Source: Sulfodiicoccus acidiphilus
Lineage (GTDB): Archaea > Thermoproteota > Thermoprotei_A > Sulfolobales > Sulfolobaceae
DNA length: 64,000 nucleotides
Direction of reading: 5' to 3'
Assembly (NCBI RefSeq): GCF_003967175.1
Contig: NZ_AP018553.1
Span: 434,001 to 498,000, forward strand
Below the pieces are notes generated by a model. The model saw only the letters and a program-made list of their open reading frames with translations. It did no database searches and was not told where the DNA came from. Every line of letters begins with the position of its first letter. Within the stretch, counting starts at the first letter, position 1. Positions 6,786 to 64,000 of the stretch are shown in pieces. Position numbers and translations under genes: made by a program.

Positions 6786-7986
6786 GTTATAAACTATCCC
6801 TACTAACAGTTATAAAAATGGGGGTTTAGGAACCACATCCCCTAAACTCGACTAAAACGTTGTGAGGTATTCGATGTCATCCCCTCCGAAGGACTTTCTC
6901 CCGATGGTGGTGTGGAAAACTTCACCAGGAAGGACAGATAGGTTGACGAGAAGGTTCTTAGGTTTCAATAGATAAGGTTAAGGAATCTACAAACTAACTA
7001 GTCTAACGAGGGGAAGTAGTGTTGTTACTACATGTACTACGTGAGGATTCAAGTTCAGATTGTTAATGTGGACGTCAACTCCTCCTAAATGCAAGGAAAG
7101 GACCTTATGGAGAAGTTTCACTTCGAGCTTCGTTTCTATTTTTGGGTCTTCCTAGGAGACGTTCCTTCAACAGATGGGAATCCTCCTTAGATCTCCGCTA
7201 ACTTGTAGCTCTTGAAGCTTAGAGTCCATCTCTTAGCCACTAAGAAAGCCTAAATTCCCCAAAGACTGGCTCCTTAAACGTCCTATGATTAATTTGCCGA
7301 GTCCCGATGGATGAGGAAAAATAAATAAATGAGGACTTATGTGGGTGAACAACCCCTTACTAACGGGGCGTCATCGCCTCGAAGGTCTCCTGCTTCACAG
7401 AGCAATCTTGATTCCCCTTAACCATAGCGGAGGTTCAGAGGGACAGTTCCGTGAACAGTACGGAAGAGGAGTTACGGAAGATAGCTTTCCACAGGCGTAA
7501 GTTTCCCCCAGTCCCGAGAATGAGATCTAGCTTTTACAGCCGAGATCAGAGGATTCTTTGTTTTTATTATATAAAAACATTTCTATAAGGAGTCTGCCCG
7601 TCTCCTCATCCATAATGTTGTCTTGAAACGTGAGTGGAGGTAGACCACCCGCGAGGACGAATGGCCCCCTTCCACTCCAACACCAGTTCCCAGACTACGT
7701 GTCGAGACAGTTAAACGCAGCGACCTTCACCTAGACGCCCGAAAGGGGAGGGTCAGCTAAGTCACGCCTCCGTCCCAACCGTTGGCCAGAGGCGGGTGAA
7801 AGGGATCGCGCACACGTCCAAATACGCTGGACGACGCTCGGTGCCCGTGGGGCGCCCCACCCTCGTGGGGTCGCGAAGTAGGAAGCACCTCCGTAAGTGG
7901 TAGTGGTTCACAAGTGTGGTAAACAGAAAACTCAAGGTCACTCTATCAGAGCGGCTAAATGTGTGTAGAGAGATATCTTACAAAGT

Positions 7987-8045
7987 CGGGGGTTGAGGGG
8001 GCGGAAAGTCTCGCCTTTCACGGCGGGGACGGACAGCCCCCTCAT
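7987..8045 (+). repeat. Repeat R1 left-end hairpin, copy 2
   Basis: GGTTGAGGGGGCGGAAAGTC and the following GGGGACGGACAGCCCCCTCA match the left end of the element at 47408. The segment folds into a long hairpin. A matching right end in the same orientation was not found, so this is probably a solitary end. Confidence 0.5.
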
Positions 8046-8097
8046 ATTTATACTTCTTTGTGAAATTTCTCTTAGTGGTACTAACGACGCTCCTCCC

Positions 8098-8327
8098 CAG
8101 CTCGATCTAAGGTTTAATGGGACTGAGGGAGGAGCGAGCAGCGGCTTCAATTTCCTTTAAGGGACTAGACGTAATGGGTGAAAGTCCCCTCCTCTTCAAA
8201 TGGGAGTGGATCTCTGATCCACTCGACTGCCCACCAAACGAGACATGTAATCCCGAACCGATGGTGGGAACGACGAGCCCCCTGGGAGGGAACCCTCGTC
8301 CCTTCCAGGGCGGGGAGGAAGTCAGAT
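8098..8327 (+). repeat. Repeat R2, copy B
   Basis: Plus-oriented copy of the roughly 225-base R2 repeat, closest to copy A (3512-3739). Conserved features are TTTAATGGGACTGAGGGAGG, a potential hairpin from GGGACTAG to GAAAGTCCC, the block ATGGTGGGAACGACGAGCCC and the end GGGGAGGAAGTCAGAT. A 70-codon frame through it is shared with copy A but has no recognisable family or start signal. Confidence 0.65.
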
Positions 8328-8372
8328 AAGCTTAGGAAGGTATTTAATGTGAGATCACGTCTAAGTACTGCT

Positions 8373-9359
8373 TCACTCTGCCAAGGATGTGTAAAGTTCG
8401 GCTAGTTTACGTCCTACTTCCCCCGGTGAATGTCTACTCTCCACGACCCGCCTGCCTGCAGAACCTAACTTCCTGTTCAGCTCAGGGGAGTCAAGTAGCT
8501 CCTTAGAGGACTCCAAGAAACACCTTACGTCCCTCCTTTCGCATAACTCCCCCCCTCCTTGAAGCGTTTCCGGCAGCGAGCCGTAGTCAGAGGACACTAC
8601 TGGCACTCCCACGCTCATGGCCTCGAGCATTGTGAACCCGTAAGCCTCAACTTGGCTCGGGAAAAGGAGCACATCGGTCTCCATCAAAAGTTCTCTCAGT
8701 CTCTCCCGGGGCAAAGGATTCACATACTCTACGTCCTTCAGTCTTCTCCTCGGTTGGCCTATCCATATTTTCCTGTGTTCCTTACCAATAGAAAGGAAGA
8801 CGTGTTCAGCCACCTCCCCTCCCTTCCTGTCGTAGTCCAATCCTACGAACAGGATGGTCGATTTACTGTGAGGTCTCCTGAAGCCCGTTTCCATTGGAGG
8901 TGGTATGATCCTGACGTCCTCTAATCCATCTGCCTTAAGTCCGTCCGCACTCCACTCCGTCCACGTCACCACTACGGCTCTCCTATTCAAAGTTCTAAAC
9001 AACAGTTCCCCGACCCTCTTGGATAGTCCGCTGAGCTTAGCGTACTCTGTGAAAAATGTGGATATGGGTTGGTCCAGTTCTGTGACCCACTTTCCTCGAG
9101 GTATGTAGAGATTGTCTAGGAAGAACGAATGCACCACTTCTCCCCTCACAGGGATGAGCGGTTGTGTTGCGAATCTCAGCGTCCAGTTAATCGCTGTCCT
9201 CCAGCTTCTCTCGTAACCGTTAAAAGTCGGAGGAAGCCTGGGGTATCCCTCAAAGACTTCGTACTCAACATCTCCTGGTGGGTGTTGCAATCTCAACGAA
9301 ATAGCAGTCCTGAACTTGCCGTCGACTCTGTTGCGGGTGGCGATCAGTTTTACCCTCAT
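8373..9359 (-). CDS. Glycosyltransferase family 4-like protein
   Basis: 328 residues from the ATG at 9359, preferred over a TTG 30 bases upstream because it gives the usual N-terminus MRVKLIATRN. The C-terminal GT-B domain is clear: ILFVGLDYDRKGG, then FPSQVEAYGFTMLEAMSVG with the catalytic EAYGFTMLE (E-x7-E), then VVSSDYGSLPET. It should transfer a sugar from a nucleotide donor onto a glycan, lipid or protein at the cytoplasmic face. It is divergent from the BlaI-type gene and shares the 9391-9398 TATA region with it. Confidence 0.88.
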   Translation of the reverse strand: MRVKLIATRNRVDGKFRTAISLRLQHPPGDVEYEVFEGYPRLPPTFNGYERSWRTAINWTLRFATQPLIPVRGEVVHSFFLDNLYIPRGKWVTELDQPISTFFTEYAKLSGLSKRVGELLFRTLNRRAVVVTWTEWSADGLKADGLEDVRIIPPPMETGFRRPHSKSTILFVGLDYDRKGGEVAEHVFLSIGKEHRKIWIGQPRRRLKDVEYVNPLPRERLRELLMETDVLLFPSQVEAYGFTMLEAMSVGVPVVSSDYGSLPETLQGGGELCERRDVRCFLESSKELLDSPELNRKLGSAGRRVVESRHSPGEVGRKLAELYTSLAE

Positions 9360-45939: not shown

Positions 45940-47225
45940 CTAGACTGAAGTGACTACTGTTCCTTTGGTCTCCCTTAGCCCCAGAATCCCAATCAGTTGA
46001 AGCACTGTTCCTATAAGCATAGCCACGGACATGGCCAATCCGTAGGCAGGGATCCCTCCAAGGGCCCCCGCAACAGCGGGAACGAAGAGCACGGCCGTGG
46101 CCCCTGCAACTCCCCTACCAACCATGTAACCGAAGTTCGTGGCCGTCGATCTCATCCTTGTTGGGAAGTGTTCCCCGTACCACACTCCGTACTCCCCAGA
46201 GACGCCCTGCATCATCGATACGAAGGTGTAGGAGTAGAAGACGGGAAAAAGGTAGGGAGCGATGAATTTTGGGGCTTCGAGGAGGGTCCCTAAGAAGACT
46301 AGGGCTGCTAAAAAGTATCCTACGCCGTATCCTACTGCCGTGATCTTCCTTCCGTACCTGTCAGCTAGTAGTCCGTCTATCCAATAGAATGGAATTGCTA
46401 CGGCCTGTCCCACTATCAAGATGGTGGTATAGTCTGGTATGGGGATCTTGAACGTGGCCCCAAGGAGTGTGGGCATATAGGTAGCATACGAGAAGTAAAT
46501 GAATAGGTTAGCGGATCCGATAAGGAGAGAGAAAAGGGTCCACCTCCTTACCTCTTTGGAGAATATTTGAACTAACGGAGTCCTCACGTACTCTCGTTGA
46601 AGCTCCCCGCCCCTCCTTAAATCATTGTACTGTATCCAGTACTTGGACTCTGGCATGAACACCCTTATTAAACCTCCGACAATAGCCGCCGTTCCAGCTA
46701 TGTAGAAGGCGTACCTCCAGCCTACGAGGATACCGTAAGTTGGGAGGACGAACCCTGCGGTGATCGCGCCGACTAACGAGCCCGCTATGAATACGCTCTG
46801 GAGTACACCTCCGCCCGTGGCCCTCCACTTGGGAGACCATATTTCTGTAAGTAACGAGAAGCCTATTCCCCACTCGCCCCCACCCCCAGTCCTACGAGAG
46901 CCCTGAGAACGTAGAGCTGCCACAGGGCAGTGACCGCCCCGGAGAGCAACGTGAACACTCCAAAGATCACAACGGACAGAACTAGGGCGTTTCTCCTTCC
47001 GTACCTGTCGGCTAACCAACCCAACATAACCCCACCAAGTGCTGAAAAAATTAGGGAGAGGGTTGCAGCCAAGGAAATGTTGCCTATTCCAGTGTGAAAG
47101 TATCTAGCCATGGGGACCAGTAGATAACTGATCAACACTAGGTTGTATCCGTCCAGGAAGTGACCTATCATTATTCCTCCGAAGGCTCCCACTTTTTCCC
47201 CCAGAGAGTACTCGACGTCACCCAA
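45940..47225 (-). pseudogene. MFS organic-acid/sugar-type transporter, frameshifted
   Basis: Frames 46863-47225 and 45940-47019 join if one G is added to the five-G run at 46877-46881, giving LRALVGLGVGGEWGIGF, a standard TM4 region. The repaired protein has about 428 residues and 12 membrane segments, with GWLADRYGRRNAL in loop 2-3 and DGLLADRYGRKITA in the second half. Start TTG at 47225. It probably imports the substrate of the adjacent CoA ligase. Direct repeats CAATAGTG flank TTGCAA just upstream (47234-47255). Confidence 0.85.
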
Positions 47226-48175: not shown

Positions 48176-49765
48176 TCAGATCCTCAATCTGGTCCTCTTC
48201 CTTTCGAGTTCCTTCCCCACATCGTAATGTCTTCCCTCTACGATCATCTTAGCTATCCTCTCAAGATCCTCGTTCCAGTAGCCTAGATTATAGCCGTACC
48301 AAGGTGACTTCAACTTCAATTCAGGTAGGCCCAGGGATTTCCACAGTTCTAGGGCTCTTTCCATGTACTCCCTCTTCGGGAGGGCCACGGGAGGATAGTC
48401 CCACTTCCTAGTCGCGTCTATAAGCATGGCGGAAGATTCCCTGAAACCAGTCTCCACCCCCTCCTCTCCAGGTGGTACTACGGACGGATCAAGATGAGCG
48501 GCCTTGCCCCTGATCACTGTCACGTCCCTAGCCGGCTGCATTCTGAAGCTCATTGCCCATATTACCGACTCTGGGTCATCTGGGTCTATGTCCTCGTCCA
48601 CTGCGACGAAGATCTTGCCCACGTCCGCTGCGTAACTGGCAGCGGCCATGAGGGCCTGCTGTGCGTCAGTTGGCTTCACCTTCCGCAGTTGGATGATGCA
48701 GAACTGCCAACTGCCACTAGTCTCGTAAAAGGTCACCCTTAACACGTTAGGTAGGTTGCAGTTGTCCCTGAGGTGCCTAGTGAAGGCGCTCTCGAAGGCC
48801 ACTTGTCTGAGCTTACTGCTCTCGCTGGGAGGCATTTGGCTTATTATCGTTTGGAAAACAGGCTTGTTCCTGTGTGTGATCGCCGTGACCTCCATTATTG
48901 GGCAGTACTGACTTTCTATCCCTACGGCCATATACCCAGTGTACTCTCCAAATGGAGGTTGGGGCTCCGCCTCCTCGAACGAGATCTTTCCTTCTATTAC
49001 ATACTCTGCCGTGGCTGGGACGAGTAGGTCTACAGTCTTTCCCTTCACCACCTCTATGGGCTCCCCATTTATTGCACCAGCCACCGCTAACTCATCGAGG
49101 CCGTAGGGGACTTTGGCTGCAGCGGCGTACTGGACGGCGGGGGGACCTCCCACCACTATTGCTGCGTCGAGTTTGACTCCCTTTCTCGCCGCGTTCCTGA
49201 GGTGAGTGTAGCCATCGCTCCCTCTGTGTATCTCCCATAGAATCTTTCTAGGTCCAAAAATCTGTCCCGAGTATGTTCCCGCGTTCTGGACACCCGTGTC
49301 AGGATCCTTAGTCAAGAACGCTGTAGTCGTCCTCACCTGTCCGCTGTAGCCTGGGAGTTCTACTGGGATCGGTATATCCGAGAGGCCTCGTCTCTCCAGT
49401 TCATCTCCAGTTATGACGTTCTCCTGAACTGGGCCGTAGGAGACTTGTTTCGGAGGAATCGGATTCCTTATCGCATGGATGAACTTCTCAGAGATCTCGT
49501 TTGGCTTGCACTCCATCCCCGTGGCGTATATATCCCTGGATGCAGCTAACGAGCCCACTGTAACCGACCCTTCGTAGCTCCTTCCATTCACATTAACGAC
49601 ATGAGTGAAGAGGAACGCCTTTCTCTGACTTTCTGGAAGGCCCCTGAACTGGAGTCTCACGAGAGGGAACAACTCAGTCTCCTTTACCACAGGTTTATCT
49701 ATCTCCCAGAGGAGTCCCCTCTGCTTAAGTACACTAAGGTATTCCCTCAAATCCTTATAAGCCAT
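48176..49765 (-). CDS. UbiD-family decarboxylase/carboxylase
   Basis: 529 residues. A UbiD-type enzyme using prenylated FMN. Recognised by DLREYLSVLKQRGLLWEIDK at the start, NAGTYSGQIFG, the Glu motif PPFGEYTGYMAVG and the late block SSAMLIDATRKW. The arginine of the usual Y-R motif is serine (TYSGQ), and the glutamate five residues before the conserved FGE glutamate is glutamine (QPPFGE). Decarboxylation or carboxylation of an aromatic or heteroaromatic acid is expected by family, but these changes leave chemistry and substrate open. No UbiX (prenyl-FMN synthase) gene is in the window. TATA-like GCTTAAAG is about 30 bases upstream. Confidence 0.9.
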   Translation of the reverse strand: MAYKDLREYLSVLKQRGLLWEIDKPVVKETELFPLVRLQFRGLPESQRKAFLFTHVVNVNGRSYEGSVTVGSLAASRDIYATGMECKPNEISEKFIHAIRNPIPPKQVSYGPVQENVITGDELERRGLSDIPIPVELPGYSGQVRTTTAFLTKDPDTGVQNAGTYSGQIFGPRKILWEIHRGSDGYTHLRNAARKGVKLDAAIVVGGPPAVQYAAAAKVPYGLDELAVAGAINGEPIEVVKGKTVDLLVPATAEYVIEGKISFEEAEPQPPFGEYTGYMAVGIESQYCPIMEVTAITHRNKPVFQTIISQMPPSESSKLRQVAFESAFTRHLRDNCNLPNVLRVTFYETSGSWQFCIIQLRKVKPTDAQQALMAAASYAADVGKIFVAVDEDIDPDDPESVIWAMSFRMQPARDVTVIRGKAAHLDPSVVPPGEEGVETGFRESSAMLIDATRKWDYPPVALPKREYMERALELWKSLGLPELKLKSPWYGYNLGYWNEDLERIAKMIVEGRHYDVGKELERKRTRLRI

Positions 49766-50576
49766 GTGAAAAGCTGGGGAACGTAGACTTTAAGCTTACA
49801 TTATCCTAGGAAAACCGAATCGGTAATGTTATAGACTTGCTTAATTTTCATTCACTCCCACCTTAGGGGCTATCTAGTACTCGTGTTAGGTGATAGAGAA
49901 ACTTCAAACATATGATAAAAATTCCATTAATACACTACTTCTGGACGACATCAACGTCTTCTAAGTAAAGCTCGTCTGAAGTGTGTTTATGAGTGCGACG
50001 GGGCAGATGAATTCGTTTAGGATGTAATGTATCTTTCCCTTGTAAGCTTTTTAGTACGTGGATTTTAGTACGTGGAACCGGAACCCGTCGATTTCTCTCA
50101 CAGTTTTTCACTCTCCGTCAATTCGTTCTATAAGTTCTATAGTGAGGGAGAAGCTGAACTTCCCCAGAGCTGACGACCCCGAAAGGCGCTCCTTCGATTG
50201 GCCTTATACAAGGCAGACTGACACTCACTACCATGCTGCAGGATTAGAGTACTGGAGCGTTTTCTCCATAATTTTATCGAAGGGAGACGTCCCTCGAGGC
50301 AAGAATCGCAGTAACCTCAATTGGTTCGGTCCTTCAAGAGGAGTAAAGCAGACTCTCACAAATTTGGTAACGATAGTAACACCTAATGACGATATTCTCG
50401 GTAGTAGATTAATTTTAACGTTAACTCAAATCATTACTAGGGTTCTCAGTTCAAAGGTAGCGAAGACAGTGAGAGTCCTTCGCTTGTTGCGTGGTAGACA
50501 TTCTCCAATTCTACAGATTGGAGGTTCTTATTTATATGGAAAAATTTATATAGTCATAACAAGAGATTAACATAAT
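49766..50576. other. 800-bp gene-free region
   Basis: A 170-codon plus frame (50058-50570) has no recognised family and sits just before the MFS promoter; I reject it as coding. The last 60 bases contain two TTTATAT elements (about 50530 and 50549), the second about 28 bases from the MFS ATG. Confidence 0.45.
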
Positions 50577-51872
50577 ATGAAGGATTTACCGTCTGGAAGC
50601 TCTTCCAAGGATCTAGTGAGATACGCTGTAGCTTCCATAAGTGGAAGCACAATAGAGTACTACGATTTCATTCTAGCGGGTTTGGCCGCAGCCCTCATAT
50701 GGCCCTCTGTTTACTACCCTGAAGTCAGTCCTGCCTTAGGTCTACTCTTCTCTATCCTGACTTTCGCCCTAGGGATAGCAGTTAGGCCGATAGGAGGGTA
50801 CGTGTTCGGGGCCATTGGGGACAGGCTGGGCAGGAAGACCGCTACTGTCTGGTCCTTAATAATTATGGGCCTTGGTTCCATCGCTGTTGCACTCACTCCA
50901 GGCTATTCCTCAGTAGGTCTAGTGGGTGGAGGACTTCTGTTCGTGTGGAGGATAGCCCAAGGAGTCGCGATAGGTGGAACCTGGGGAGGATTCGCGGTCT
51001 GGGTCATAGAACACGCCAAGGATTCCAGGTGGAGGGCATTCTGGACCAACTTTACTAGTCTGGGCGTCGGGGTAGGCCTCTTGGGCTCCGCCGGCTCCTT
51101 CCTTTTAGCCATTACACTCCTCTCGCACGCAGAGCTCCTCAGCTGGGGATGGAGACTCCTCTTCGGCATAGGTGCGTTGGTTGCACTAGTGGGTATCCTA
51201 GTTCGTCTGACGCTAGCGGAGAGTCCCGTGTTCAACGAGCTTTTAACTAAGGGCCAAGTGGCAAAACAGCCAGGAGTAACTGTGCTGAAAGAGCAGTGGC
51301 CTAGGGTCCTGAGGTTAGCACTTCTCTTCAATTACCAGATATCACTCTTCTACATAGCAGCTGCCTTTAACATTGGATACATGTTAAGTGTAGGAATATC
51401 ACCTTATCTCGCTTTTCTATCCACTACACTAGCTGCCCTCGCCATAATAGTGTTCCAAACTCTGGGGGCGATATTAGGTGACCGTATAGGAAGGAAAAAA
51501 GTCCTACTCATAGGTGCGGTCTTGAGCGCCGTTATGGCGTTCCCTTACTACCTCTTGATCAACTATGCCGCGGCGTGGAGCGTCATTCTAGCCCAGAGCG
51601 TCTTTTTAGCTGTTGTCATGTTCGGTTTCGGTGTGATCGGGGCCCTCATGCCTGAGAACTTCCCTCCTAAGTACAGGAACTCTGGAGCCAGCCTAAGTTA
51701 CCAGCTCGCTACTCCTATGTCTGCGGTAGCCAGCGTAGTCCCTCCAGTGTTTCTCACCTTATATGGAAAGGAAGCTTGGCTCTACATCTCCGCCCTAATA
51801 GTCGGCATCTGTGTAGCATCGTTGATAGCACTAGCCTTCACCGAGGAGACGATAAAAGTGAGAGTGGGGTAA
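50577..51872 (+). CDS. MFS metabolite:proton symporter (MHS-like)
   Basis: 431 residues, 12 membrane segments. STIEYYDFILAG at TM1, the RPIGGYVFGAIGDRLGRK loop 2-3 motif, and GGTWGGFAVWVIEHA in TM4 are typical of the metabolite:H+ symporter group that carries mono- and dicarboxylates. It is clearly paralogous to the carrier at 59157-60503. Placed between two UbiD genes, it probably imports their substrate (inference). Confidence 0.9.
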   Translation: MKDLPSGSSSKDLVRYAVASISGSTIEYYDFILAGLAAALIWPSVYYPEVSPALGLLFSILTFALGIAVRPIGGYVFGAIGDRLGRKTATVWSLIIMGLGSIAVALTPGYSSVGLVGGGLLFVWRIAQGVAIGGTWGGFAVWVIEHAKDSRWRAFWTNFTSLGVGVGLLGSAGSFLLAITLLSHAELLSWGWRLLFGIGALVALVGILVRLTLAESPVFNELLTKGQVAKQPGVTVLKEQWPRVLRLALLFNYQISLFYIAAAFNIGYMLSVGISPYLAFLSTTLAALAIIVFQTLGAILGDRIGRKKVLLIGAVLSAVMAFPYYLLINYAAAWSVILAQSVFLAVVMFGFGVIGALMPENFPPKYRNSGASLSYQLATPMSAVASVVPPVFLTLYGKEAWLYISALIVGICVASLIALAFTEETIKVRVG

Positions 51873-52393
51873 CCCTCTAAGTAGACCTTATAATAGAGGC
51901 GTTTTCTTTCGTGGTTAGTAAGGTATGAGGCCTATAGGGACTAGGATTCCTTGAACTAACGTTAATATGGTATTTATTTATAAGATAACGAAAATTTATC
52001 TCTTTGATACATTAACTCCTCACGGATTAAAATGTGCTGAAAGGGTTCCTCGTTCTCACCGTTGGTTCAAATTCACATCTCTCAGTCAGTAAGTGGTGGG
52101 GCCCTGGAACTCCTCCGTCCGACAGTGACGTACCCTCAATTGATTATCTGGTTCCTCAAAGGGAAACGAGAAAGTGGATCTTCCTAAATACTCACTTATA
52201 TTATATTCTCGATCGAGCTAGGAAAGGGCTTCGTTAGTGTCACCAACAGTAAGTTACGGAAGTAGTGTAAATTTGAAGACGTTTATGCCAAAGAGTCTTC
52301 CTACACCTTAACCCCCTTCCTTGCAACTAAGATACGTTACGAACTCTGGAGTTATAAATATATAGGAGTAAAAGAAGGCCATAATGACCTAGA
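51873..52393. other. Gene-free stretch before the cupin gene
   Basis: A 67-codon frame (52034-52237) is not supported. A strong TATA (GTTATAAATATATAGG, about 52350-52365) lies 30-40 bases before the cupin ATG. Confidence 0.45.
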
Positions 52394-52732
52394 ATGAGGG
52401 AGAATAAGGAGTTCTTCGATACAAGTACGCTTGAATGGAGGAAGGTCACAGAAAAGGTATATGAGAAGATATTAAGTAAGGACGAAGAAACCGGCTCTTA
52501 CACGAGACTCCTTAGAATAGAACCTGGAGGGAAAATAGAACAGGCACAAGAGCATCCTTTCTATGAGGAAGTATACATAATTAAGGGTTCGCTCACTGAT
52601 CTCTCGTTGAACAAGACTTTCATGGAGGGAATGTACGCCTTCAGAAATCCAGGGATGAGGCACGGCCCCTACGTTAGCGAGTCGGGGTGTCTCACAATAG
52701 AGTTCAGATACTACCCACAGAGGAAGTCTTGA
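52394..52732 (+). CDS. Small cupin-domain protein
   Basis: 112 residues. A single cupin barrel: LLRIEPGGKIEQAQEHPFYEEVYIIKG (H, E ligands) and PGMRHGPY (second His). Such proteins bind a metal and act as dioxygenases, isomerases or sensors. Its place between UbiD and MFS genes suggests a role in the same catabolic set, for example on a diketone or aromatic intermediate, but no motif fixes the activity. Confidence 0.85.
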   Translation: MRENKEFFDTSTLEWRKVTEKVYEKILSKDEETGSYTRLLRIEPGGKIEQAQEHPFYEEVYIIKGSLTDLSLNKTFMEGMYAFRNPGMRHGPYVSESGCLTIEFRYYPQRKS

Positions 52733-53166
52733 GATTCACACTTTCCACTATCCTGCCATATGTTTTAATGTTTCCAATTAGATGAAAGATGAAATCGGAT
52801 AGATATCTGTTCGTTCGCTGAGATTCGTCGTATGCCTTATTTTCCGATTACAGTGTTTTGTGGATCTCTTGAATTTCTGTAGATCCTGAGAAATTATAAG
52901 TAGAGATTGTTCCAACAATTTGTTGAGAATTCTCGTTAATTTCGACACTTGATTCCTTATCGTCGCGCATACGTCCCTCCTAGATACCTTTCCTCCGGTA
53001 GATGATCCAGCCACGCACTTAGACCTTTAACTTAGCCTCGATTACTTGTTCAGCGTAGTTTGTCCCCTCCTCCAAGGTCTTCTTCGTTCGACGAGAGCAC
53101 AGACTCCACCGCCACAACCCCCCAAACCTTTAAAAAACACTAAATGTTGCACCTCAAGGAGAACAC
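52733..53166. other. Gene-free stretch
   Basis: AT-rich, no convincing gene. At the end TTTAAAAAAC (about 53130-53140) and the ribosome-binding site AAGGAGA serve the UbiD gene at 53167. Confidence 0.45.
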
Positions 53167-54777
53167 ATGTCCTACTACAAGGACGTGAGGGAATATCTCA
53201 AGAAATTAGAGGAAGTGGGCAAGCTAACTGTGGTGGACTTTCCAGTTGACAAGAACACCGAGCTCACACCGCTAGTGAGGCTCCAATACCGTGGTCTTTC
53301 AGAAGAGGCAAGGAGGGGTTTCCTCTTCACTAGTGTCACGAACAACGGCGAGGAAATGAAGGAGATCTCCAAGGTCGCCACCGGCATATACGCCTCCTCA
53401 ACGCAGATCTATGCCCTAGGTCTAGCCACGGAACCCACTAACGAGTCCATACGTAAGAAGTGGGAGGAAGCGCTCCTCCACCCCCTCAAGACTAAGACAG
53501 TGTCGAGCGCACCGGTGCAGGAGGTAGTGATCACAAAGGAGGAGATGGAGAAAGGGAGGGGACTTAACATACTCCCAGTGCCTCTAGAGGTCCCAGGGTT
53601 CAGTGGTCAGTTGAGGACGACCACCCACATAATCACGAAGGACCCTAAAAGCGACTGGGTTAACATGGGCAACTACTCCATGCACCTGATGGGGAAGACT
53701 TGGGCGCTCTGGGAGATAAATAGGGGTAACCACGGGTGGGTTCACCTCCTGAACGCGAGGGAGATGGGGATGGATTACTTGGAGTTCGCCGTAGTTATCG
53801 GTGGTCCCCCCGTTCTCTTCTATGTTGCCTCGGCCAAAGTGCCCCACGGAGTCAACGAGCTGGAGGTCGCGGGCGGTCTCGCTGGTGAGCCTCTGGAGGT
53901 GGTTAAGGCAAAGACTGTGAACCTTGAGGTTCCCGCCCACGCCGAGATAATAGTAGAGGGAAGGGTCTCCACCAAGGAGTTCCTAGTGGGAAACGCGTTC
54001 GGGGAGTACACCGGCTACATGGCCACCGACGTCTTCATGAGGCCCAGGATGGAGATCACCGCGATAACGATGAGGAGAGATCCCATCTTCGTTCACATAA
54101 TGAGTCAGATGCCCCCCAGCGAGAGTTCCAAGGTTAGGCAGATCTCCTCGGAGAACATTTACTACAAGTTCCTCAAGTACGACTGCAAGGTTCCAGGCAT
54201 AATAGACGTGGCGTGGCACGAGTTAAGTCAGGCTCAACTCTGTGTCATAAGGATGAAGAAGATCAACAATTCTCACCCGTGGCAGGTGCTTCACCTGGCA
54301 GCTGGATACGAGCCTAGGTGGGGCAAGATCTTCATCACCGTCGACGACGACATAGACGCGCGTGACTTGGACTCTGTGATGTGGGCTCTGGGATGGAGGA
54401 TGCAACCAGACAGGGACGTGGAGATAATAAAGGGAAGGTTTGCGGGACTAGACGTATCGGCGTACAGGCCAGATGCACCGCACAGCGAGAAGGAGTCCCC
54501 CAACGTCATAGGTTCCTCAGCGATATTAATAGATGCCACAAGGAAATGGCCATACCCTCCTGTTTCCCTACCCAAGAGGGAATACATGGAGAGGGCCCTA
54601 CAGTTATGGAAGAAACTCAACTTGCCCGAACTGAAGCTAAAGGAACCTTGGTACGGTTACGAATTAGGTTACTGGCCCAAGGAGTACAGGGAAGACGCCG
54701 AGTTCGTGTTGAGGGGCGACTTCGAGTCCATAGGGAGGAGACTGATTGAGAGGACCAAGAACACCAAAGGAATCTAA
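53167..54777 (+). CDS. UbiD-family decarboxylase/carboxylase, second copy
   Basis: 536 residues, paralogous to the UbiD protein at 48176-49765 over its full length (for example SQMPPSESSK, ILIDATRKWPYPPVSLPKRE). NMGNYSMHLMG again has serine where UbiD enzymes usually have arginine, and GNAFGEYTGYM has glycine five residues before the conserved glutamate. It should bind prenyl-FMN. A clear AAGGAGA lies 5 bases before the ATG. With the cupin and MFS genes it forms the middle of the island. The substrate is unknown; an aromatic, furan, pyrrole or acrylate-type acid is possible. Confidence 0.9.
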   Translation: MSYYKDVREYLKKLEEVGKLTVVDFPVDKNTELTPLVRLQYRGLSEEARRGFLFTSVTNNGEEMKEISKVATGIYASSTQIYALGLATEPTNESIRKKWEEALLHPLKTKTVSSAPVQEVVITKEEMEKGRGLNILPVPLEVPGFSGQLRTTTHIITKDPKSDWVNMGNYSMHLMGKTWALWEINRGNHGWVHLLNAREMGMDYLEFAVVIGGPPVLFYVASAKVPHGVNELEVAGGLAGEPLEVVKAKTVNLEVPAHAEIIVEGRVSTKEFLVGNAFGEYTGYMATDVFMRPRMEITAITMRRDPIFVHIMSQMPPSESSKVRQISSENIYYKFLKYDCKVPGIIDVAWHELSQAQLCVIRMKKINNSHPWQVLHLAAGYEPRWGKIFITVDDDIDARDLDSVMWALGWRMQPDRDVEIIKGRFAGLDVSAYRPDAPHSEKESPNVIGSSAILIDATRKWPYPPVSLPKREYMERALQLWKKLNLPELKLKEPWYGYELGYWPKEYREDAEFVLRGDFESIGRRLIERTKNTKGI

Positions 54778-56968: not shown

Positions 56969-58660
56969 CTACCTGTAGCTCGTAACTACGTCAACTAGGG
57001 CTGGAGAATTGTGTTTTTTGACGTATTCGAGCGCCTCCTCTATTGAGGATCTCAACTGGCCTGGAGACTCAACTGGTCCAACACCGTGAACCCCCATGGA
57101 TTTTGCCATCGTTGAGAAGTCCACCACGGGATCTGATATGGAACCCCCCACTCTGAAGGCCCTCTCTGGGTCCCTTCCTCTCTGTTTGGCGATCAAGTAG
57201 TTGTGGTCGGCGTCGTTGAAGTACGCCCTATTGTTCATCATTATGATCAACAACTTCACGCTCCTGTTCCTCGCTGTCCATAGTGCACTAGGAGTGAAGA
57301 GGAGGTCGCCGTCCGGCTGGAAGTCCAGCACGAGCTTATCCCTAAGTGCGAGGGCAGCACCTATCGAGATTGGTAGTCCGTACCCCAATCCCCCCGCTCT
57401 AACCTTCCCCAGGTAACACCTCTCCCTCTCTAAAACCCAAGTCTTTCTCAGCCACCCACCTAGGTCTCCGTTGGCGATTACCCAGTCTTCGTTTTTCAGG
57501 ACTTCCCACGCCTCCTGGGCCAGTCTAGGTACTGAGACAGGAACGTCGTTGAACCTTCTCTCCAATTCTTCTCTCCACCTCCTCCTCTCCTCATCCCTCA
57601 ACTTCGCTACCCTATGGGCCCACTCCTCCTTTGGTCTTACGTCCTCCGTGAGTGAGAGTAATCTCCTCACCGCAGCACTTCCCTCCCCCACGATGTAGAC
57701 GTCCTCTAATGCGATGGACTCCTCGTTGACCCAAGAGCTCAAACTAGGTACCCCGATCCTCACTACCTTAGCCTTAGTGAGTACCTGCGACTTCCTTTCC
57801 AGTTTATCCGTCCTGGACAATACGTTGTGGAGGTTACTCACATCTAAGGCTAGGACTAGATCGGCTTCCCTCAATACCTGTTCTACGCCTGTGGCATCAA
57901 GAGGATGGGAGTTTGGGAAACTGAAATACTCCCCTGCATCTATCACCCCGGCCCCTATCCTCTCGGCCAGTCTGACCAGATCTGCCACTCCTCCCTGTCT
58001 CCTACCAGTGTTTCCAGCTACGATCACGGGCCTCTCCGCCCTCCTTAGCTCATCTCTCACTTCTCGGAGTTTATCGTCATCGATTCCCACATTCATGGGC
58101 GGTTTGACCTTTGGCATCTCGACGTTGGTGGCGTCTCTCTCTAAGTAGCCGGCGTCTAAGCAGACGTAGACCGGACCCTGGGGAGGAGTTAGTGAGAGTC
58201 TATATCCTTGGATAAGCGAGCGAAGGGCACTCTCCAGCGATGCGGGGAAGTCGTCCCACTTTACGTATCCCCTAACTACCTCGTTCGGGATGGTGGCGGT
58301 GTGTAAGTAGTCTATCCAGGCCCTCCTCCTCTCGTAATCCATCGGTCCCTCTGCACCTATTAACAATATCGGAACGTGATCGAAGAAGGCGTTATATATG
58401 GCCATAGACCCGTGAAGTAGGCCTACCACGTCATGGAGCAAGACGACCATGGGTTTCCCCGAGGCCTTGGCGTAACCGTGGGCTATACCGACCGCGATCT
58501 CCTCGTGTGGCACTGGAACTAGCTCGACATCTCCATAGTTAACTAACGACTCCCAAAGAGCCCTAAACGTCGAGCCTATGTTCGCGGAAACGTATTCTAT
58601 CCCCATTCCCTTTAATGCGTCAACAAGGAGGTCTGAGGAGTACTTAGAGTTATTAACCAT
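56969..58660 (-). CDS. Thiamine diphosphate-dependent decarboxylase-like enzyme (benzoylformate decarboxylase/AHAS fold)
   Basis: 563 residues with the three-domain TPP-enzyme layout. The activating glutamate is in VPVPHEEIAVGIAHGYA (about residue 51), the middle domain has PVIVAGNTGRRQGG, and the TPP-binding block is FQPDGDLLF...MMNNRAYFND. The first glycine of GDG is proline here. The ALWTARNRSVK...NNRAYFND phrase matches benzoylformate-decarboxylase-like and benzaldehyde-lyase-like proteins. Expected reaction: decarboxylation or carboligation of a 2-oxo acid. Single gene in the island. Confidence 0.9.
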   Translation of the reverse strand: MVNNSKYSSDLLVDALKGMGIEYVSANIGSTFRALWESLVNYGDVELVPVPHEEIAVGIAHGYAKASGKPMVVLLHDVVGLLHGSMAIYNAFFDHVPILLIGAEGPMDYERRRAWIDYLHTATIPNEVVRGYVKWDDFPASLESALRSLIQGYRLSLTPPQGPVYVCLDAGYLERDATNVEMPKVKPPMNVGIDDDKLREVRDELRRAERPVIVAGNTGRRQGGVADLVRLAERIGAGVIDAGEYFSFPNSHPLDATGVEQVLREADLVLALDVSNLHNVLSRTDKLERKSQVLTKAKVVRIGVPSLSSWVNEESIALEDVYIVGEGSAAVRRLLSLTEDVRPKEEWAHRVAKLRDEERRRWREELERRFNDVPVSVPRLAQEAWEVLKNEDWVIANGDLGGWLRKTWVLERERCYLGKVRAGGLGYGLPISIGAALALRDKLVLDFQPDGDLLFTPSALWTARNRSVKLLIIMMNNRAYFNDADHNYLIAKQRGRDPERAFRVGGSISDPVVDFSTMAKSMGVHGVGPVESPGQLRSSIEEALEYVKKHNSPALVDVVTSYR

Positions 58661-60503: not shown

Positions 60504-61612
60504 GTGATGGTTCTACGCTTATCGTACTGTCTCAAAGAGGAACTCAACTCTCACCACTGAAACAAAACGGCCATCGAGCTGTCCATTGTAAGACGCATAA
60601 AGTCCGTAGTGAGAATTATAAAATAAAAATCTCTTAAATCTTTTTTATTAAAAATACTAGTTTGGCGAGCGCTATCAATGACAAGAAGTCCATAACGTAA
60701 AGGTGGGAGTTCCCGACTACGGTTATAGTATGAATTTGGGAGTTCCGCAAGCAGTAGAAACGTTTGCCAGAACAGAGAAGGCCCCTGGGACGTCATTCAC
60801 TGCACTTGACAGGTCGTGGAGTCAACTTCGAACATGCGCAGCAATCGGATGGCCCGATTGTCAGTGTGCACTTAACGCCCTAGTTCTGGGCTATTCACCG
60901 ACGGGGAGACACGATAGGCCACCTTGAACTCAGGAGCGTGTTGAAAACGGCGAGGTGGCCTCAACGTCACAAAGTAAACGGGCTTATCAAGAAGGACGAT
61001 CGGACGCACCGCTTAATCGTAGACGCGATACGTCTTATCAATCGACATCGGTCCTCCACGTCAGAGGGGAAGCTCTAGGAAATGGCGTGCGTGGCCCAGA
61101 TGGCTTCCTCTTTAGGGACCCCACCTCTCTCGCTGGTCTCTGCTTGTTCCCCGCTCGCGGCTTAGGGAGTGGGGAGCTCAAGTCACCACGGAAGTGACTC
61201 GGAGCTTAAAAGTGCCTACTCCTTAAAACTTGTAAAGTTGTAGCGAAGAACAGTAACGAAATCCCTCCCAGGTGTGACAGGACCTAACGCAAATTCGGGA
61301 GGCGAAGACGCCATCTATACATCGATAGTGCCCTCTGAGCGAAGAGCAATTTAATTGTTCTTCACCTTCGTTGGTAACTCTGACGACTCCTTTCCCTTAG
61401 CTCCGTCGAGGAACTCAACCGAACTGAAGGAAGGACAACCCTAAATACTTTCCTGAAGGGAACTCTAGCAGAACGGGGAGGAAGTCTGTTCATAATGGAG
61501 CAAGAAAAGGATGTTAGATCACCAATTGACCGTCTGGGTTTATTCGTTTGACACGAGTTTCATGGAATTCGCTTCGATAACCCTTTTAAACAAAAGAATA
61601 AATAAAGTTATC
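60504..61612. other. 1.1-kb gene-free region
   Basis: Short frames only (for example 60703-60927 and 60955-61197), none recognised. An AT-rich block (60600-60665) follows the MFS gene. Near the end CCCTTTTAAACAAAAG (61581-61596) is the TATA of the next gene, so the 34 codons preceding 61613 are probably untranslated. Confidence 0.45.
61584..61590 (+). promoter_or_regulatory. TATA box of the second TPP-enzyme gene
   Basis: TTTTAAA about 25 bases before the ATG at 61613, which selects that start over the upstream ATG at 61511. Confidence 0.5.
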
Positions 61613-63364
61613 ATGGATCAGGCGAAGGAGAGAGAAGGTTTATTTCCATCATCGGCGGCAGACCTATTGATTTACTCTCTTCTGGACTATGGAATCGAGC
61701 ACGTATTGATGAATACTGGCACGGACTACCCCTCCATAATAGAAGCGATAGCCAAGGTGGAACACACTAACCCCGGAAAGTTGAAGGCCCTAGTTGTACC
61801 CCACGAGATGACTGCTGTTTCCATGGCTTATGGTTACTATCTCTCGTCCTCACGAGTCTCTCCGGTTATGGTCCATACGATCCCCGGTACCGCTAACTCG
61901 ATATGTGGACTCCTCAATGCGCAGTCCATGAGGATCCCAATTCTACTCATAGCTGGAAGGACACCGGTGACCGAGAGCGGCCTGAGAGGAAGCAGGGATC
62001 AACAGATACATTGGTACCAGGAACTCAGAGACCAAGGGGAACTGGTAAGACAATTCACGAAGTGGGACTTCGAGTGCCGTCTACCGAGCCAAGTTCCACA
62101 CGTGTTGGAGAGAGCGTTTGAGTTAGCACTCAGTGATCCTAAGGGACCAGTTTACATTACCTTCCCTAGGGAAGTCCTAATGCAGGAGGTGCCGTCGCGA
62201 GAGGTGAGATCCGTGAGGCCGGTTCCCGCGGCCCCCACCATCCCGCCCATTTCAGAACTCGAGAAACTAGTGGACCAGCTGATAGGAGCGGAGAACCCCC
62301 TTATAGTCACCAGCTATCTGGGAAGGGACGCAGGAGCAGTTGGTGAGCTGGTCAAATTTGCCGAGGCATTGTCCATTCCAGTAGTGCAGGACTTCTACTT
62401 CCTCAATTTCCCCACTAATAATCCCCTCTACGTCGGATCCTTGGAGTCCCAGTATGGGAAGGAGTATATGAGGAGATCTGACGTAATTCTCTTACTGGAT
62501 ACCGACGTGCCGTACATTCCGAGTGAGGTGAAAGTCAGGGAAGACGCAAAGGTTCTCCAACTGGACGTAGATCCTCTCAAGGAATCCATACCTATGTGGG
62601 GATTCAAGGTCGACGTTGCCCTCAGGGGCAACTGCTCGGTAGCTCTACCACCGCTCCACAGTTTAGCGCTGAGACGCATCGATGAAGGACGCGTCAGTAA
62701 GGATGTGTTAAGGGATAGATACGCTAGGGCCAAGGAGGCCCACGTAAGGATGAAGGAGAAGTTCAAGGAAGAGGCCTTAAGTCACCGCAGCGACAGGCCG
62801 ATAGACCCCAGGTGGCTCTCCTACTCTTTCGGAAAGGTGAAGGACGATTCCACGATAGTCTTCGGCGAAGCCGTCACCTCCCCAGTTGTCGAATACATGG
62901 AGTTCTCCAAGCCAGGTACAGTATTCAACAAGACCGGCTTCGGCTGCTTGGGTTGGGCAATGGGTGCTGCCTTGGGTGCTAAACTCGCCTCTCCAGATAA
63001 GACGGTAGTGGCTCTAGTGGGGGACGGTACTTACATTTACTCGGCTCCAACAGCATGTCACTTCGTTTCTAGGAAATATAGCTTACCCTTCCTTACCATA
63101 GTTTACAACAACCAGTCGTGGTACGCCTCCAAGAGGCCGGTTCAGAAGTTCTACCCTGAGGGCTACGCCGTGAGGACTTCTAACTTCCCTGGGGTGGATT
63201 TATCTCCCCCTCCGAAGTTCGAGCTCACAGCAATGGCTAGCGACGCCTTCGCGGAGGCCGTCGAGGATCCTGAGCTCTTACCAGAGGCTCTGGAGAAGGC
63301 GTTCGGAATCGTGAAGAGAGGCGAGAATCAGGCTCTGCTTAACGTCATACTCAAGAAGCCGTAA
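61613..63364 (+). CDS. Thiamine diphosphate-dependent enzyme (acetolactate synthase-like)
   Basis: 583 residues from the ATG at 61613, judged by the TATA spacing. The activating glutamate is in VPHEMTAVSMAYGYY, the middle domain has NPLIVTSYLGRDAGAV, and the TPP block VALVGDGTYIYSAPTACHF...IVYNNQSWYA is complete. The C-terminus is about 20-30 residues longer than in typical decarboxylases. It belongs to the acetolactate synthase-like group of unknown substrate; no small regulatory subunit is nearby, so branched-chain amino acid synthesis is unlikely. It probably decarboxylates a 2-oxo acid in the island's pathway. Confidence 0.88.
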   Translation: MDQAKEREGLFPSSAADLLIYSLLDYGIEHVLMNTGTDYPSIIEAIAKVEHTNPGKLKALVVPHEMTAVSMAYGYYLSSSRVSPVMVHTIPGTANSICGLLNAQSMRIPILLIAGRTPVTESGLRGSRDQQIHWYQELRDQGELVRQFTKWDFECRLPSQVPHVLERAFELALSDPKGPVYITFPREVLMQEVPSREVRSVRPVPAAPTIPPISELEKLVDQLIGAENPLIVTSYLGRDAGAVGELVKFAEALSIPVVQDFYFLNFPTNNPLYVGSLESQYGKEYMRRSDVILLLDTDVPYIPSEVKVREDAKVLQLDVDPLKESIPMWGFKVDVALRGNCSVALPPLHSLALRRIDEGRVSKDVLRDRYARAKEAHVRMKEKFKEEALSHRSDRPIDPRWLSYSFGKVKDDSTIVFGEAVTSPVVEYMEFSKPGTVFNKTGFGCLGWAMGAALGAKLASPDKTVVALVGDGTYIYSAPTACHFVSRKYSLPFLTIVYNNQSWYASKRPVQKFYPEGYAVRTSNFPGVDLSPPPKFELTAMASDAFAEAVEDPELLPEALEKAFGIVKRGENQALLNVILKKP

Positions 63365-63635: not shown

Positions 63636-64000
63636 ATGGCGTTGAGCTTCGACCTAAGAACTTGGGTAGATAACGTAAGGGAGAGAGGACTCCTCCGCGA
63701 AGTAAGGGGGGCTGACTGGAACCTGGAGGTAGGCTGCCTAACTGACATGAACGCGAAGGCCAAGAGGTACACGCTCCTGTTCGACGAGATAAGGGGGTAT
63801 CCTCCTGGTTACAGGATACTTACAGGAGCTCTCCTGGATGCCTCCAGGGTGGGCCTTTCCCTAGGCTTTAAGCAGGTGGGGAGGGACATGGAACTCGTCA
63901 AGGTTCTCAAGGAGAGAATCGAGTTCGCCTCTAGACACGCTGATCAATACTCCCCACTGGTAAAGGAAAGCGGCCCCCTGTTCGAGAACGTGAGAAGGGG
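63636..64000 (+). CDS. Third UbiD-family protein, N-terminal part (runs off the window)
   Basis: 121 residues to the edge, frame still open. The start FDLRTWVDNVRERGLLREV, ADWNLEVGCLTDMNA, LLFDEIRGYPPGYRILTG and the Leu/Gly-rich SRVGLSLGFKQ reproduce the N-terminal UbiD domain, closer to classical UbiD proteins than to the two other copies. A TATA CTTTAAAG precedes the ATG. The catalytic region lies outside, so its completeness is unknown. Confidence 0.85.
   Translation, partial: MALSFDLRTWVDNVRERGLLREVRGADWNLEVGCLTDMNAKAKRYTLLFDEIRGYPPGYRILTGALLDASRVGLSLGFKQVGRDMELVKVLKERIEFASRHADQYSPLVKESGPLFENVRR

Follow-up and report, generated by a model that had tools for sequence, protein, structure and literature searches.

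How can a UbiD-like enzyme function without the arginine and the first glutamate of the usual Arg-Glu-Glu set? The question is raised by two genes of the archaeon Sulfodiicoccus acidiphilus, which lie in a window of 64,000 nucleotides (the whole stretch of DNA that was analysed; contig NZ_AP018553.1, positions 434,001 to 498,000). The host genome is a single contig of 2,353,189 bases and holds four UbiD genes, two with serine at the catalytic arginine site (Ser-type) and two with arginine there (Arg-type). The explanation favoured here, with slightly better than even confidence, is that the two Ser-type proteins are catalytic UbiD variants dependent on prenylated flavin mononucleotide (prFMN), in which the arginine would have moved and the old Arg-Glu pair decayed.

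Two Ser-type UbiD genes

The two genes and the codons of their active-site residues are listed below. The active-site columns were read from an alignment of both proteins with 24 other UbiDs.

48176..49765, minus strand: UbiD-like protein 1, Ser-type, 529 amino acids (open reading frame list, Pfam, alignment)
49268..49270, minus strand: Ser166 of protein 1, codon TCG, at the catalytic arginine site (Fdc1 Arg173) (alignment)
49331..49333, minus strand: Arg145 of protein 1, codon AGG, proposed relocated arginine, where Arg-type UbiDs have Tyr or Phe (alignments, residue count)
48959..48961, minus strand: Gln269 of protein 1, codon CAA, at the Fdc1 Glu277 site (alignment)
48944..48946, minus strand: Glu274 of protein 1, codon GAG, the acid kept (Fdc1 Glu282) (alignment)
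53167..54777, plus strand: UbiD-like protein 2, Ser-type, 536 amino acids (open reading frame list, Pfam, alignment)
53677..53679, plus strand: Ser171 of protein 2, codon TCC, at the catalytic arginine site (Fdc1 Arg173) (alignment)
53614..53616, plus strand: Arg150 of protein 2, codon AGG, proposed relocated arginine (alignment, residue count)
53989..53991, plus strand: Gly275 of protein 2, codon GGA, at the Fdc1 Glu277 site (alignment)
54004..54006, plus strand: Glu280 of protein 2, codon GAG, the acid kept (Fdc1 Glu282) (alignment)

An earlier note on this DNA had described two complete UbiD copies with serine in place of the arginine, Gln or Gly in place of the first glutamate and a retained FGE glutamate. 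The alignment agrees at all of these sites. It also agrees on the number of complete copies, as the third UbiD of the window, which has a normal Arg-Glu-Glu set, starts at 63636 and leaves the window.

The proteins are 50% identical to each other. Their family membership is clear from the Pfam UbiD match (E 1e-54 for protein 1, 1.1e-47 for protein 2), with the core domain PF01977 at 185.3 and 162.4 bits (cut-off 23.3) and UbiD_C (PF20696) at 82.3 and 65.3 bits (cut-off 24.2). UbiD_N falls under its cut-off of 24.3 in both (21.5 and 21.4 bits), and the NCBIfam model for UbiD family decarboxylases, TIGR00148 (cut-off 244.85), is passed by protein 1 (263.7) and missed by protein 2 (215.4). In PMC8988006 and PMC8379154, an E(D)-R-E ionic triad is called conserved in the UbiD family. 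Both proteins lack its arginine and first glutamate and keep the second glutamate; therefore they are not filed as canonical UbiD decarboxylases and, on their sequence, are classed as a variant branch.

The serine is also found in the orthologues of a second genome of the phylum, G176 (67% identical for protein 1, 64% for protein 2), in a copy 89% identical to protein 2 from a metagenome-assembled genome (MAG) of the same genus (L005), and in bacterial relatives. For the protein 2/L005 pair, nonsynonymous divergence (pN) is 0.082 against a saturated synonymous divergence (pS) of 0.770 over 375 codons, indicating purifying selection. Because of this conservation and the low pN relative to pS, the substitution is judged to be neither a sequencing slip nor a product of gene decay.

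The arginine exchange across the family

The alignment was extended first to 110 UbiD sequences and later to 173 of the 178 found, five shorter than 330 amino acids being dropped. Bacterial sequences came from a sample of 345 genomes of one phylum and 148 of one class, plus loci matching a query from the clade of long UbiDs; 60 were taken from the many further matches listed in the 148-genome class. All counts refer to aligned sequences, near-copies included, and not to independent events.

At the Arg173 column the 173 sequences have Arg in 139, Ser in 30, Asn in two and Thr in two. The earlier description 'missing the arginine' stands for this site. An arginine is nevertheless present at another fixed site in all 31 Ser/Asn sequences that cover the segment, lying 21 residues (26 sequences) or 22 residues (five) upstream of the Ser/Asn; the remaining one of the 32 is truncated where it would fall. 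These distances were counted without gaps, since in three sequences of the protein 2 kind the arginine was off by one alignment column. Proteins 1 and 2 both belong to this arginine-relocated type, defined by Arg 21-22 residues upstream of Ser or Asn. No Arg-type sequence has arginine at that distance (0/139), although 18 of the 139 have one at 23 residues; at the relocated column itself they carry Tyr (91), Phe (47) or Ala (1). The new arginine sits in the motif PGxSGxxR-T and variants of it.

Within the long clade, when the 32 Ser/Asn sequences are set against 89 Arg-type sequences, only two of 517 columns show no overlap in residues, and these are the old and the new arginine sites. The same two columns separate the groups fully in a second MAFFT alignment of 519 columns, and likewise in the earlier, smaller set. 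Among 17 representative Ser-types, neither Arg145 nor Ser166 varies.

The remaining active-site positions differ in their fate. Glutamate at the Glu277 site is universal in the Arg-types (139/139) and is found in seven of the 32 Ser/Asn sequences, the others having Gly (14), Ser (3), Asn (2), Gln (2), Asp (2), His (1) or Tyr (1). The acid of the Glu282 site is always kept, as Asp in 20 and Glu in 12. The presumed cofactor-metal positions are equally constant, with Asn161 and Glu225 in 32/32 and His (24) or Asp (8) at 184; we take these to match Fdc1 Asn168, His191 and Glu233 as manganese/potassium-phosphate ligands. The earlier note would give up its reading if a structural alignment placed another arginine and glutamate at the same spatial positions. 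The relocated arginine comes near to this, in sequence only; a replacement for the lost first glutamate, looked for in the aligned UbiDs, was not found.

The two Asn-type sequences (L129:8947-10599 and L189:115-1740) have Asp at the Glu277 site and their arginine exactly at the Tyr position (PRLT); they possibly represent an independent arginine exchange. The two Thr-type sequences (L113:6740-8248 of genome G515 and L122:16749-18212 of G784) have Thr, His and Asp at the Arg173, Glu277 and Glu282 sites. The first is near the decarboxylase HmfF by sequence (E 1.5e-63), and both genes adjoin cupin genes.

No description of such an exchange was found among open-licence PubMed Central texts, a search that left subscription papers and preprints outside and that included the accessible parts of PMC5818171, PMC13040415, PMC8379154, PMC7976604 and PMC8988006.

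Branch membership and number of events

Both proteins fall in a clade of long (~530 amino acids) UbiDs. The subgroup with an altered active site that the earlier note proposed is supported and broader than it had claimed, as it includes bacterial Ser-type members. Relatives at least 45% identical over the full length were found, in 300 genomes of the phylum, only in the host genome itself and G176 (64%, 51% and 45%). At E 1e-60, two of 31 genomes of the host's family match, both of its own genus, as does one of 12 in the family of G176. In G176 each paralogue has one Ser-type orthologue, and a third long copy (L041) is Arg-type. The Arg-Glu-Glu set is intact in bacterial relatives from plasmids of rhizobia and Paraburkholderia and from a MAG (L006). 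One long UbiD, in Phyllobacterium zundukense (NZ_CP017944.1, L051:9917-11602), lies in pieces in different frames, unannotated, beside a GntR regulator gene.

MAG L006 led to a UbiD-rich bacterial class, the phylum name of which is uncertain (Deltaproteobacteria in the MAG title, Myxococcota in the database label). Long-clade UbiDs were found at E 1e-90 in 36 of its 148 genomes, and the copy first read was Ser-type in 17 of these 36, with the motif MYSGH in 16 and VYSGY in one. A further copy, from G771, is a fragment without the Ser/Arg segment. In some genomes in the class of G515 the UbiD candidates run to dozens (as many as 129 at first look in G782), and the UbiD loci read in that class have many periplasmic binding-protein genes alongside. 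No relative was found in the viral contigs scanned.

In a tree of 75 sequences, 15 Ser sequences, archaeal and bacterial, form one clade (support 99/95); one further Ser sequence (L099) has no supported placement, and the Asn sequence lies elsewhere. When the trait columns are masked, one clade of 11 Ser sequences is recovered (100/98). A single clade for all Ser sequences is not rejected by the approximately unbiased (AU) test (p-AU 0.525). The exchange may have happened twice, because a single clade of the Ser sequences with the one Asn sequence tested is marginally rejected (p-AU 0.047).

Comparison with characterised UbiD systems

The closest solved relative by sequence is found under PDB entries 6h6v and 6h6x, which we take to be HmfF, a 2,5-furandicarboxylate decarboxylase. 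This naming agrees with PMC8988006. The match covers residues 6-429 (E 9.4e-53), with the same domains and the same acid. HmfF has the arginine and both glutamates, whereas the window proteins have Ser, Gln or Gly, and a new arginine at the Tyr position; in the HMMER alignment of protein 1, Y-S stands opposite H-R and QPPFGE opposite EGPFGE.

The residue roles are taken from Fdc1 of Aspergillus niger (4za4), a homologue at E 4.7e-26 that uses Arg173-Glu277-Glu282; the window proteins are without two of these three. According to PMC5818171, loss of Arg173 impairs cofactor maturation, activity is low in R173A and very low in E277Q, Glu277 is proposed to tune Arg173, and Glu282 is the acid-base residue.

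The long Arg-type UbiDs (rhizobial L049, L052 and L055, Paraburkholderia L050, MAG L006 and G176 L041) belong to the same ~530 amino acid clade and are 35-46% identical to the window proteins, but all keep Arg-Glu-Glu and have Tyr or Phe at the Arg145 position. Several of their loci have UbiX and a thiamine-pyrophosphate (TPP) enzyme or molybdenum hydroxylase nearby.

Alignment with phenylphosphate carboxylase and other UbiDs, which the earlier note had proposed, sets the window proteins apart. The paralogues PpcA and PpcB of Azoarcus sp. KH32C are 27-30% identical to them and both keep Arg-Glu-Glu. Neither window protein reaches the curated models TIGR02723 and TIGR02724 (alpha/beta), scoring 82 and 100 bits against a cut-off of 565 for alpha and 138 and 120 against 469 for beta. 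A phenylphosphate carboxylase-like role was rejected on these grounds. Phthaloyl-CoA decarboxylase is among the distant matches of the window proteins.

Gene neighbourhood

The neighbouring features of the window are the following.

52394..52732, plus strand: small Cupin_7 cupin, 112 amino acids, upstream of protein 2, possible pathway partner (profile match)
56969..58660, minus strand: TPP enzyme, probable pathway partner (profile match)
61511..63364, plus strand: second TPP enzyme, NF006203 (profile match)
63636..64000, plus strand: start of the third UbiD, normal Arg-Glu-Glu, continuing outside the window (L037:137-1591) (alignment)

The first TPP enzyme has a 42% identical counterpart in G176, where it adjoins the orthologue of protein 1, and a 36% identical one in rhizobial locus L049. 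A TPP enzyme, UbiX or molybdenum hydroxylase recurs beside long UbiDs in rhizobia and G176. The surroundings of the two genes also include three transporters of the major facilitator superfamily (MFS) type, a further MFS gene that is broken, a benzoate-CoA-ligase-like enzyme and a Rieske oxygenase subunit. Outside the window there are a molybdenum hydroxylase, an amidohydrolase and a second CoA ligase, split in two, and a UbiX homologue some 0.7 kb beyond the third UbiD. The fourth UbiD (L038:4776-6221), elsewhere in the genome, is of the normal kind with Asp at the last site. This gene set would suit the breakdown of an aromatic or heteroaromatic acid taken up from outside, although the substrate is a guess.

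Two genes in or next to the cluster appear interrupted. One MFS transporter is split over overlapping frames at 45940-47225 (start 46863-47225, rest 45940-47019) and looks frameshifted, and the CoA-ligase gene L037:8148-9760 is in two pieces of 371 and 146 amino acids, where its L005 relative (53-1645) is one frame. Directly after the normal UbiD, L037:1634-2092 encodes a 152 amino acid protein that matches PNPOx_N weakly, at 26.4 bits and so under the cut-off of 28.1. By loose analogy with the flavin-reductase-like maturase PhdC, it is possibly a prFMN-handling partner.

In bacteria, Ser-type loci have many genes for cupins and for binding proteins of ABC transporters. In 12 of the 13 loci L112-L124 the Ser-type gene adjoins a cupin, within about 205 bases and on the same strand; these cupins are larger than that of the window and differ from it in kind. 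The cupin was rejected as a specific partner of Ser-types because Arg-type UbiDs of the same genomes adjoin cupins too (L122, L123, L124).

Proposed mechanism

Proteins 1 and 2 most likely still bind prFMN, in line with the UbiX homologue of the cluster. They would decarboxylate (or reversibly carboxylate) an acid, probably aromatic or heteroaromatic, within a catabolic cluster, although this substrate class is a guess. The arginine serving the substrate carboxylate and cofactor maturation would have shifted one strand back within the same beta-hairpin (Arg145 in protein 1, Arg150 in protein 2), from where we infer that it reaches the same pocket. With the usual arginine gone, its tuning glutamate would no longer be held in place and could drift to Gly, Gln, Ser, Asn, His, Tyr or Asp, while the proton-donating acid stayed. 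Drift at the Glu277 site beside a kept acid is what would be expected if Arg173 had left, its tuning partner had been freed and the acid was still needed. Judged from sequence, the active site seems to have been remodelled and not abandoned, and the enzyme is presumed active.

An AlphaFold structure prediction used four sequences (proteins 1 and 2, L005 and L006). The new and old arginine sites stand on either side of a DPxTG turn, and the low-confidence model places strands at 144-153 and 160-170. Going by the strand pairing, these would form a beta-hairpin on which the sites lie close together, almost diagonally.

Several points weigh against a relocated arginine. The model is poor (mean predicted local distance difference test score, pLDDT, 40.2) and does not establish Arg145 beside the cofactor. 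The distance from the new arginine to the serine is 21 residues in most Ser-types, against mostly 22 from Tyr/Phe to Arg in the Arg-types; unless a bulge is present, spacing shorter by one residue would flip the direction of the side chain. L113 and L122, the two Thr-type proteins, share 26.7% and 24.6% identity with the window proteins and have neither the old nor the relocated arginine. Finally, the exchange perhaps rests on one to three events, which limits its statistical weight, and there are two independent pairs on supported branches, below the number giving significance.

Alternative explanations

The alternative that survives best, though unlikely, is that the arginine was lost without replacement, Arg145 serving packing or the cofactor phosphate and the substrate being one that needs no arginine. 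The shorter spacing and the low-confidence geometry are in keeping with it, and the archaeal sequences offer another candidate, Arg181 in W-E-I-x-R, which from E. coli UbiD presumably lies near the cofactor-phosphate region. In bacterial Ser-types, however, Arg145 is invariant and Arg181 is not, and Arg181 was rejected as a general substitute for this reason. The complete absence of arginine from the relocated place in the Arg-types suggests a link between the two sites.

Slightly less probable again is a pseudoenzyme role, in which a Ser-type protein would join an Arg-type UbiD in a hetero-oligomer without being catalytic itself. This subunit role, suggested by the earlier note, finds little support. 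In its favour, Ser-type and Arg-type genes overlap or directly adjoin at two places of the bacterial genome G770 (L112, 3898-5499 and 5499-7079; L129, 3589-5181 and 5216-6670). The Ser-type gene of G176 L039 (9977-11605) is near an Arg-type gene (6992-8530), with one gene between, and both archaea also hold an Arg-type UbiD of one subclade, mutually 64% identical. The low residual activity of Fdc1 R173A and E277Q (PMC5818171) points the same way. Set against this are the acid and metal positions kept throughout the 32 sequences, the invariant Arg145, and the cupin as neighbour in 12 of the 13 bacterial loci. The two Ser-types of G176 lie on different contigs, and none of the three residues is missing from PpcA/PpcB, the known UbiD hetero-oligomer. 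Hetero-oligomer formation as a general rule was rejected, the neighbourhoods showing such gene pairs at the two places of G770 and loosely in G176.

A different prFMN reaction, be it in vivo carboxylation (the other suggestion of the earlier note) or non-decarboxylating chemistry, could account for the remodelled triad and draws on the general reversibility of the UbiD family, but is improbable, as the neighbours suggest a catabolic pathway (CoA ligase, Rieske oxygenase, molybdenum hydroxylase, TPP enzyme, uptake transporters) and nothing in the gene neighbourhood indicates carboxylation.

Significance for the UbiD family

The Glu-Arg-Glu triad is treated as common UbiD machinery and lends itself as a marker in annotation and design. 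A branch without this arginine that keeps the acid and the presumed cofactor positions and has an arginine at another fixed site offers a test, set up by nature, of which triad residues are indispensable, and the two exchanged sites offer a ready pair for swap mutants. In its widest form the proposal is more tentative: there may be an archaeal and bacterial UbiD branch in which a relocated arginine and a single acid suffice for catalysis with prFMN, in which the exchange took place more than once and maturation or substrates would differ from those of characterised UbiDs. For annotation, the two genes of S. acidiphilus carry a warning that one absent motif is no ground for calling such UbiDs inactive.

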